Source: Ignavibacteriota bacterium (lineage in GTDB: Bacteria; Bacteroidota; Ignavibacteria; Ignavibacteriales; Melioribacteraceae). Taken from it: a DNA stretch of 64,000 nt. The position numbers and the translations under genes are program-made. Shown piece after piece: positions 11,612 to 41,267 of this stretch (its first letter is position 1; the number at the start of each line of letters is the position of its first letter). The notes beneath the pieces are model-generated. The model searched no databases, had not been told where the DNA came from, and was given only the letters and a program-made list of their open reading frames with translations. The stretch is taken from the NCBI GenBank assembly GCA_013112585.1, contig JABFGH010000018.1, positions 1 to 64,000 on the forward strand. Direction: 5' to 3'.

Positions 11612-12810
11612 AAATCCCATTTCTAGATTTAAAAGCAAATTACAATTCGATTAAAGATGAAATTACACCTGCAATTCAAAATGTATTAGATAACACTGCT
11701 TATGTTTTAGGCAAACCCGTATTTGAATTCGAAAAAAACTTTGCAGAAGCGCACAATGCAAAATACTGTTACGGAGTGAGTGCCGGAACAGATGGCAACC
11801 ATGTGACTTTATGGGGGCTCGGTATTGGTGTCGGCGATGAAGTTATAATACCTGCTAATACATTTATAGCAACAGCCTGGGGCGCAACACTCTGTGGTGC
11901 AACGCCTGTGTTTGTTGATTGCCATCCCGAAAGTTATAATTTAGATCCTTCCAAACTTGAAGAAGCAATAACAGAAAAAACAAAAGCAATTGTAGCCGTT
12001 CACTTGTATGGTCAGCCTGCTGATATGGATGGGATCAAGGAAAAAGTAAAAAGTAGAAAGTTCAAAGAAACTGATAAGGGAGTTTTTGTTCATACCGAAA
12101 CGGGGCAAACAATTTATTTAGTGGAAGATGCAGCACAAGCCCATTTAGCCGAATACAAAGGTAAAAAAATTGGCGGACTCGGAATTGCTTCTTCATTTAG
12201 TTTTTACCCCGGCAAAAATCTCGGTGCGTATGGTGAAGCCGGTGCTGTTATAACTAACGATGAAGAGCTCGCAAAGAAATTTAAGATGCTCAGAGACCAC
12301 GGTGCTGAGGAAAAGTATAATCATATTTCATTTGGTCACAACTATCGCATGGAAGGTATTCAGGGTGCAGTACTCGGTGTAAAGTTAAAACATCTTCCGG
12401 AATGGACAGAAAATAGGAGAAGGGCAGCGGCAAAGTATAAAGAATTGTTATCTGATATTGACCAGATTATTCTACCGAAAGAAATGGATTATGCTAAACA
12501 TGTTTATCATTTATTTGTAGTTCAAATTAAAAGTAACAATGGAACCCGCCTGCCGGACGGGCAGGCAGGAAAAAGTGAAAGAAGAGATGAACTTCAAAAA
12601 TATTTAGGTGAACATGGAGTAGCTTCTGGTTTACATTATCCAATTCCTTTACACATGCAGCCATGTTTTTCACATCTCGGTTATAAGAAAGGAGATTTTC
12701 CTGAAGCTGAACAATTAGCTGAGCAAGGTATATCATTGCCGATGTATCCCGAAATGACTAAAGAACAAATTGAATATATTTCGGAAACTGTGCATAATTA
12801 CTTTTCGTAA
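11608..12810 (+). CDS. DegT/DnrJ/EryC1 sugar aminotransferase with in-frame palindromic insert
   Basis: A 400-residue PLP-dependent aminotransferase of nucleotide 3-keto (or 4-keto) sugars. Seen are the AGTDGN and VEDAAQAH motifs and the PLP-binding lysine in FYPGKNLGAYGE at about residue 203. Near residues 312-326 the sequence contains GTRLPDGQAGK, encoded by a GC-rich palindrome and not expected in the family; removing it would join VVQIKS to RRDELQKYL, the normal order. With the Gfo/Idh dehydrogenase and hexapeptide acetyltransferase downstream it matches the WlbC/WbpE step forming a 3-amino sugar. Whether the insert harms activity is unknown; it lies in a surface-loop region of the family. 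Confidence 0.88.
   Translation: MKIPFLDLKANYNSIKDEITPAIQNVLDNTAYVLGKPVFEFEKNFAEAHNAKYCYGVSAGTDGNHVTLWGLGIGVGDEVIIPANTFIATAWGATLCGATPVFVDCHPESYNLDPSKLEEAITEKTKAIVAVHLYGQPADMDGIKEKVKSRKFKETDKGVFVHTETGQTIYLVEDAAQAHLAEYKGKKIGGLGIASSFSFYPGKNLGAYGEAGAVITNDEELAKKFKMLRDHGAEEKYNHISFGHNYRMEGIQGAVLGVKLKHLPEWTENRRRAAAKYKELLSDIDQIILPKEMDYAKHVYHLFVVQIKSNNGTRLPDGQAGKSERRDELQKYLGEHGVASGLHYPIPLHMQPCFSHLGYKKGDFPEAEQLAEQGISLPMYPEMTKEQIEYISETVHNYFS
12545..12569. repeat. GC-rich palindromic element inserted in coding sequence
   Basis: Arms gcctgcc (12548-12554) and ggcaggc (12560-12566) with a 5-base loop, preceded by cccgcc-type sequence. It is much richer in GC than the gene around it and encodes GTRLPDGQAGK in frame. 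The cccgcc start resembles the palindromes at 2059, 2523 and 2792 in the intergenic array. Confidence 0.75.
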
Positions 12811-19010: not shown

Positions 19011-19390
19011 CACCGTCATTTATGACGGTGATTGATGTTAAAATTATGTAAGGGGCTTTAGCCCAAAACCGTTTGGGTTATCCCAAGGATTCCTTTGGAA
19101 AAACCCAATATTTATATTTGTTCAATATTCACGGCGCTGAAGCACCGTGCTATTATCTCTTTTGCATAATTCGGGTTTAAATTGGGCGTCAGAATTGATC
19201 TAAAATTATAATCAACGGCTAAGTTCTAAATATAAAATCAATTATTCTTCAACCCCGCTGAGGTTGCGGCTATATATTTTTTCTTTATTCCATAGGTTTC
19301 ACCTATGGCTATTTATATTGGACTACTTCGCAGTCCAACAAAACTACCCTAAATGGGTAAAAGTTTAATAACCATGGATAAAATCCGTGG
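19011..19390. repeat. Array of about nine short hairpins
   Basis: Consecutive inverted repeats with 4-9 bp arms and 2-7 base loops: caccgtca/tgacggtg at 19011-19030, gggc/gccc at 19053-19064, a ccaagga-type pair at 19083-19098, cacggcgct/agcaccgtg at 19130-19149 (one mismatch), ccgc/gcgg near 19254-19269, ccatagg/cctatgg at 19290-19308, ggact/agtcc at 19320-19336, taccc/gggta at 19345-19359, and ccatggat/atccgtgg at 19372-19390 (one wobble). Spacers are A/T-rich. The design is like the four-hairpin units at 40637-41249. Confidence 0.7.
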
Positions 19391-40616: not shown

Positions 40617-41267
40617 AGAATATTTTTAATGTTGAAAGATATCATTCGGGTATTTTTGTTGAACCGCTAACGCGGTTCCGTTATTGTTAGTGTCTTTATT
40701 CAGGCTGCAAACATTGAACTCCTCTGGAGTTCTTTTCAAAAAAAATAATAGTTGTTTTGGAGACTGCAGCGCGGTCATATGTTTGTAGCAAGAAAGAAGA
40801 GGAACGAAAAAACAGAACCACGGATGTGGTTCAATGTGGGAAGATATCATTCGGGTATTTTTGTTGAACCACTAACGCGGTTCCGGTATAGCTAGCGTTT
40901 TTATTAAGGCTACAAACATTGAACTCCTCTGGAGTTCTTTCCAAAAAAATAATAGTTGTTTTGGAGACCGCAGCGCGGTCATATGTTTGTAGCAAAAAAA
41001 GAAGAAGAAAGATAAAACAGAACCACGGATGTGGTTCAATGTGAGAAGATATCATTCGGGTATTTTTGTTGAACCGCTAACGCGGTTCCGGTATTGTTAG
41101 TGTTTTTATTCAGGCTACAAACATTGAACTCCGCTGGAGTTCTCAAAGCCAAACAAAAATCCCACAATTGTTTTTACGACCGCAGCGCGGTCATATGTTT
41201 GTAGCAAGGAGTAAGGAAAAGGATAAATGAACCACGGATGTGGTTCAACGAAAAACCTCACAAAATT
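40617..41267. other. Intergenic region filled by tandem 205-bp repeats
   Basis: The 650 bases between convergent genes are almost completely the three-copy tandem repeat. No gene is supported. Two 74-codon open frames on the - strand are the same repeat translated twice. No separate terminator is called; the hairpins in the repeat could serve both flanking genes. Confidence 0.85.
40637..41249. repeat. Three tandem copies of a 205-bp four-hairpin unit
   Basis: The landmark agatatcattcggg occurs at 40637, 40842 and 41047, exactly 205 bases apart. Each unit has four hairpins in the same order: aaccgc/gcggtt, gaactc/gagttc, gaccgc/gcggtc and aaccac/gtggtt, each with a 3-5 base loop, separated by A/T-rich spacers that include tgtttgtagcaa. 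Copies differ at scattered positions, mostly in spacers; copy 2 has a changed first arm. The third copy stops just before the NamZ gene's 3' end. Confidence 0.93.

Follow-up and report, generated by a model that had tools for sequence, protein, structure and literature searches.

We wondered how an aminotransferase gene of 38% G+C might come to read, with its frame intact, straight through a palindromic unit in which 18 of 21 bases are G or C. The gene lies in what we call the window, the stretch of 64,000 nucleotides of Ignavibacteriales DNA that was analysed here (Table 1). QdtB (3frk) and a transaminase of Archaeoglobus (7b0d) are the nearest solved structures to its product. An initial annotation had described the segment as GTRLPDGQAGK, a GC-rich hairpin inserted in frame. 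The in-frame hairpin was borne out, but its eleven-residue extent was not: the usual 19 residues are still present on its two sides, so the net insert amounts to 7 residues. The unit is a multiple of three in length and contains zero stops in all six reading frames, and its border in DegT is ambiguous by 1 bp. Positions 12535-12580 fold with -18.2 kcal/mol (z -3.17; 2 of 200 shuffles equally good) and the bare 21-mer with -11.1 kcal/mol (z -1.85; 8 of 200 shuffles equally good).

Table 1. Features of the DegT locus and of the empty hairpin site, in window coordinates.
Feature	Position	Strand	Remarks
DegT/DnrJ/EryC1/StrS aminotransferase, QdtB-like, intact, 400 aa	11608..12810	+	Pfam PF01041, E 1.9e-108; PDB 3frk, 7b0d
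17-residue extension of an earlier loop (loop 1, about residues 150-166)	12055..12105	+	in 9 of 57 homologues, including all 7 with a repeat-like later loop (loop 2)
Loop residues 311-319	12538..12564	+	sole segment of at least 3 residues with pLDDT <50
21-bp hairpin unit CCCGCCTGCCGGACGGGCAGG	12545..12565	+	in frame in DegT; net +7 residues (TRLPDGQ by alignment)
Perfect hairpin GCCTGCC-GGACG-GGCAGGC	12548..12566	+	
Empty site: REP-like hairpin CACCGTCATAAATGACGGTG in a composite intergenic repeat	19011..19030	-	filled elsewhere in the genome, where copies of the repeat have the 21-bp unit in this loop

Within the 64-kb window, a search at 3 mismatches found no second copy of the DegT unit, and 100 shuffles gave 0 matches. 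The annotation had further likened the hairpin to the repeat array at 2059-2824. The two have a CCCGCC start in common, but the CCTGCC/GGCAGG stem is not shared and the resemblance is loose. The array consists of tandem-like intergenic repeats (tgactataaatgacag, gaatgactgaatga) with CCCGCC...GGCGGG hairpins and is distinct from the DegT unit. Another hairpin, GAACCGCtaacGCGGTTC, occurs identically at 40661-40678 and 41071-41088. The two copies lie at a distance of 410 bp and are read as GTALAVQQKYPNDI, the first within an open frame of 81 codons and the second within one of 45.

The DegT gene carries, in frame, one copy of a 21-bp hairpin that is dispersed in its genome, a 4.94-Mb draft of 77 contigs that we searched using reversed patterns as controls. 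The 21-mer CCTGCCGGACGGGCAGGCAGG was found in 24 places at two mismatches or fewer, the loose hairpin CCTGCCN{3,9}GGCAGG gave 79 matches per strand with nested ones counted, and the pattern CCTGCCGN{2,8}GGCAGG, whose loop starts with G, gave 62 rows; each control gave 0. Flanks were read for 61 rows; copies whose 60-base surroundings are the same had been combined into one row, and a number of sites appear twice owing to symmetric or overlapping matches. No open frame of at least 150 codons encloses 54 of them. The other seven lie within such frames, namely DegT of the window, L085, L105, L092 (three rows) and L099 (one). By our reading, two of the 61 rows, those in DegT and L085, are probably true gene insertions. 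The L092 frame, known only as an open frame, was left uncounted, as was L099, where the match is close to the beginning of a frame delimited by two stops. Matches at L202, L210, L212 and L105 were read by eye and rejected as ordinary coding sequence; we take L202 to be NuoE-like, L210 FliG-like, L212 unknown and L105 acetyltransferase-like.

Sorted further by flank, 15 of the 61 rows show the right-hand flank of a REP-like hairpin, in 13 cases together with its left arm, and eight belong to a second composite repeat; the remaining 38 form a group of others. The unit is built of a 5' CCYG tag, a CCTGCC stem, a loop of 4-5 bases and GGCAGG. Across the 38-row group, the left flank reads C in 31 rows, C in 28, T in 23 or C in 10, and G in 30, and the tagged unit has 21 bp in 11 rows and 20 bp in 10, with 3 rows of some other length. 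As 20-bp units are about as common as 21-bp ones, 21 bp is not a family rule.

Two pairs of filled and empty sites, both from the window's own genome, differ by exactly 21 bp each. In the first, the empty CACCGTCATAAATGACGGTG on the minus strand of the window is matched by the filled L089, which reads CACCGTCATA[CCCGCCTGCCGGACGGGCAGG]AATGACGGTG (unit in square brackets) and has closely matching flanks. The borders at this REP tip are unambiguous and cannot be shifted, so that a target duplication is absent there. The second pair comes from related genes with a T9SS tail: L085 is filled, GAACTTGATG[CCCGCCTGCCGAACAGGCAGG]GAAGTAATTTG, and L096 is empty, GAACTTGATGGAAGTAATTTG. Here the border of the unit is ambiguous by 1 bp and two loop bases are unlike those of the DegT copy. 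No target-site duplication of the kind that marks a MITE was seen at these sites. DegT itself exceeds homologues such as L130 by 21 bp; L130 reads SNNSENRSEKRNE, with flanks of equal length and without the insert. The figure of 21 bp for DegT is taken from this length and from the other two sites, the nearest homologues being 72-74% identical in protein. As the flank after the DegT unit (CAGGAAAAAGTGAA) resembles that of an intergenic copy, L102 (AAGGAAAAAGTGAA), slightly more than 21 bp could have entered, with a matching loss.

Across the order, the hairpin was found in 124 of 164 genomes and is very unevenly distributed, with 0 to 163 copies. Reversed controls gave 0 to 5 per genome, so that counts of a few per genome may be chance, except in G154, where the control gave 54. 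In this genome, which belongs to the same family, those 54 reversed matches per strand stand beside 0 for the hairpin pattern itself, which suggests that it holds another abundant palindrome. The genomes of the three tree-nearest DegT homologues (G089, G088 and G086) have 0 hairpins versus 79 in the genome of the window, which fits a burst in the lineage followed by one landing in DegT.

At the protein level, the AlphaFold model of the enzyme has a mean pLDDT of 88.2, and the unit is predicted to sit in a disordered loop, the low-confidence residues 311-319 between strand 303-307 and helix 324-335. Five solved relatives, aligned residue by residue, have a 16-residue gap at the insert site. We aligned 57 distinct rows from 75 loci, with identical proteins merged; the named relatives are mostly Ignavibacteria, Melioribacteraceae and unspecified Bacteroidetes. 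The stretch around the loop ranges from 10 to 26 residues in these rows, 19 being usual, and RLPDGQA occurs in the window only. By tree path, L130, L141 and L132 are the closest three homologues; all of them are 7 residues shorter here and free of the repeat. Equivalent residues across the family were thus not found, in agreement with the annotation's view that the segment has no place there. The 57 rows contain no other internal extra segment of at least 3 residues, apart from the conserved extension of loop 1; C-terminal tails also vary among them.

Taken together, we consider it very likely that the segment in DegT belongs to a dispersed 21-bp hairpin unit that proliferated in this lineage and of which a single copy inserted into the gene. 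The annotation's proposal of an in-frame palindrome analogous to those of Rickettsia gains support from the genome copies, the two 21-bp pairs, the insert-free homologues and the low-confidence loop. Selection may remove most landings of the unit in coding DNA. The DegT copy would have survived because seven residues were added to a loop that tolerates changes of length, so that the enzyme would still work, and the same tolerance would account for the other repeats found in this loop of relatives.

What moves the unit was approached through the eight Y1-transposase (PF01797) matches of the genome. The CCTGCC/GGCAGG hairpin was absent from the eight stretches (2.2-3.3 kb) around them, and none of the 62 hairpin rows lies within 5 kb of any of these matches. 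Seven of the stretches contain hairpins of other sequence and one, L157, contains none at the stem length used; a RAYT-style partner transposase flanked by the same palindrome was found in none of the eight. Either a single-strand (HUH-type) transposase working in trans or a replication-based copying event would be compatible with the missing target duplication and with the combination of tag and hairpin.

Seven of the 57 homologues, namely the window, L179, L046, L178, L162, L127 and L048, have repeat-like sequence in the DegT loop that holds the insert. It is of six kinds, and the tree requires at least 6 gains or losses of such sequence. Five of the seven loops (26, 26, 25, 24 and 22 residues) exceed the usual 19. 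Among the loop repeats that were folded, only those of the window and L179 make clear hairpins. The L179 loop (CTCCCCTTACCGAAAGGGGAG; z -1.45, 14 of 200 shuffles equally good) is of a type found in 3 places of its genome including DegT; in G000 its CTCCCC pattern occurs in 4 places, part of which could be chance as the reversed control gave 2. The L046 loop reads CCCTTCGGCTCCGCTCAGGG, a form present exactly in DegT only, and its consensus form occurs in 6 places including DegT, five of them on the DegT contig. It was rejected as a hairpin, since it folds no better than shuffles (z 0.21). The loops of L178 and L162 consist of about four to five TCAGAAG-type heptads each and have the usual 19 residues: the repeat makes up a loop of normal size, with no net insertion. 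This heptad was found in two places each in G020 and G022, the genomes of these two loops, all in open frames, which leaves one further open frame in either genome, and the heptad loci in G000 (one of two places read) and G161 have short frames of 54 codons. L127 contains CAATCAGTCAATCA twice; throughout its own genome the exact form was found in DegT only, and a 229-kb sample gave a single near match, which lies in a different open frame. In G161 the exact form occurs in two places, inside open frames taken as ordinary coding sequence. The L048 loop is of an AAAGGTC type, of which a 191-kb sample held no copy beyond DegT. As judged from sequence, the case for dispersal is strong for the window unit, fair for the L179 and L046 types and partial for the heptads.

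Repeat-like sequence in this loop (loop 2) was present in seven of the nine homologues with a long loop 1 versus none of the 48 without (Fisher 1.4e-7, kinship ignored). With kinship considered, 3 independent pairs on supported branches remain and the association is non-significant (sign test, p 0.25); constraining the nine long-loop-1 rows as one clade was weakly rejected (p-AU 0.035). We treat the association as a lead. It enters a bolder reading, in which the 21-bp hairpin with its 4-base tag would itself be mobile and among the smallest such elements known. Entering REP-like tips and genes without target duplication, its seven stop-free codons would suit proteins, and the DegT loop, opened by the loop-1 extension, would act as a recurrent trap for unrelated repeats. 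We put this forward tentatively and think it doubtful as a whole.

Somewhat less probable still, we find, is that the recurrence reflects an insertion bias more than structural tolerance, the loop DNA being a preferred target whose purine-rich sequence resembles the arrays around many intergenic copies. Many intergenic units are indeed embedded in A/G-rich arrays, the loop DNA averages 74% purine, and 28 of 44 rows reach at least the 95th percentile of their own gene (44 of the 50 repeat-free rows, 6 that were too short or not located being left out). However, loops rich in lysine and glutamate are purine-rich for coding reasons, and purines are less frequent at the empty sites of the T9SS and REP pairs (13 of 21 and 11 of 20 bases, by eye).

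The loop might instead be hypervariable, its repeats arising by local slippage or duplication and their likeness to repeats elsewhere being a by-product. The spread from 10 to 26 residues would agree with this, as would the heptad loops of ordinary length in L178 and L162, and slippage is possible for L127 and L048, which lack further copies in the sequence searched apart from the one near match to L127. For the window copy it is contradicted, since the insert exactly matches a genome-wide unit whose borders are unambiguous at a different site; further copies of the L179 and L046 types, too, are present in the respective genomes. We therefore regard slippage as a very improbable explanation of the DegT segment. 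Selection of the insert for a function, be it as an mRNA hairpin or as a new binding peptide, strikes us as even more remote: the hairpin is stable, as its folding energy shows, but the insert is confined to one of 57 rows, lies in a low-confidence loop and is replaced there by unrelated peptides in relatives. An assembly error or chimera, for which the draft state in 77 contigs might speak, is least credible of all given a short insert with an intact frame, a complete unit and exact-border copies elsewhere.

How often repeats enter other genes was sampled in 464 kb of the window's own genome, comprising the window and 20 hand-spread stretches. Among eight repeat stretches in ORFs, the one in DegT alone was convincing; five belonged to ORFs within the array (2.2-2.7 kb), one fell within the N-terminal 40 residues of a 706-aa ORF and one in a 107-aa ORF. 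The 400 kb outside the window thus gave zero convincing captures, in a search that requires three intergenic copies within the sampled pieces and so misses rarer repeats. On this evidence, and with two of the 61 hairpin rows read as lying in genes, gene capture of repeats looks rare. Of four CTCCCC hairpins listed for the window's own genome, three are within T9SS sorting domains (L250, L253 and L261; reversed control 2), and in the GDP-fucose synthase of G022 a heptad segment occupies a place at which 1E6U shows a gap of 9 residues. Some further cases were noted in passing. Several of the 150 T9SS sorting-domain matches scored in G000 (of 232 candidates) have repeat-like segments in turns; a set of 76 T9SS domains yields no rate, as it was partly chosen for long matches. 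An Eco57I-type restriction-methylase (L200, on contig C32 of G161) contains an in-frame CTCCCC hairpin and a CCTGCC-like segment, besides other repeat-like stretches seen by eye.

In-frame palindromes have so far been discussed mainly for Rickettsia and a few REP-rich genomes (O. terrae, mentioned in the comparison below, belongs to the genus Opitutus). The same outcome is met here in a free-living bacterium of a different phylum, where comparing sister sequences of a single genome reveals the exact borders of the unit. With six kinds of repeat in one enzyme loop of seven homologues, the gain of protein segments from spreading repeats becomes testable by comparing the enzyme with and without each of them.

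Our literature search found no report of the 21-bp unit or of the DegT loop, which is no proof of absence. The closest relatives in behaviour are the Rickettsia palindromic elements (RPE), described, in the part of PMC2229807 drawn on here, as Rickettsia-specific palindromes of 105-146 bp that are scattered in intergenic DNA and also occur in frame within protein-coding genes; activity has been shown for one of the proteins concerned. The unit likewise lies both between genes and, in two of 61 rows, in frame within them, but its host belongs to the Ignavibacteriales. It is also much shorter, at 21 bp versus 105-146 bp; yet RPE-4 and RPE-6 of R. conorii are identified, in the part of PMC3733652 that concerns them, as short CGTC REPs, so that size alone fails to separate the unit from RPE, and the CGTC tag is absent here. 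We regard it as RPE-like in action without filing it as an RPE, since the host is not a Rickettsia and neither REP tag is present.

In-frame MITEs resemble it in that a small repeat is translated in frame. Those treated in the same part of PMC2229807 (ERIC/RU-1, 127 bp; Correia, 107 bp) are translated and have target duplications, whereas the unit measures 21 bp and no target duplication was seen. Intragenic REPs are described in the corresponding part of PMC3733652 as high-copy palindromes of 20-40 bp, some of them inside ORFs, in O. terrae, R. conorii, Thauera and others; in recB of X. campestris and X. oryzae, different REPs are reported at about the same site. The unit is a high-copy palindrome within this size range. 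It differs from GTAG and CGTC REPs in its 5' tag, CCYG, in having no copy beside the eight Y1-transposase matches of its genome, and in that some units sit inside the loop of a REP-like hairpin. The unit is thus a variation on known in-frame palindromes, the RPE of Rickettsia and the intragenic REPs.
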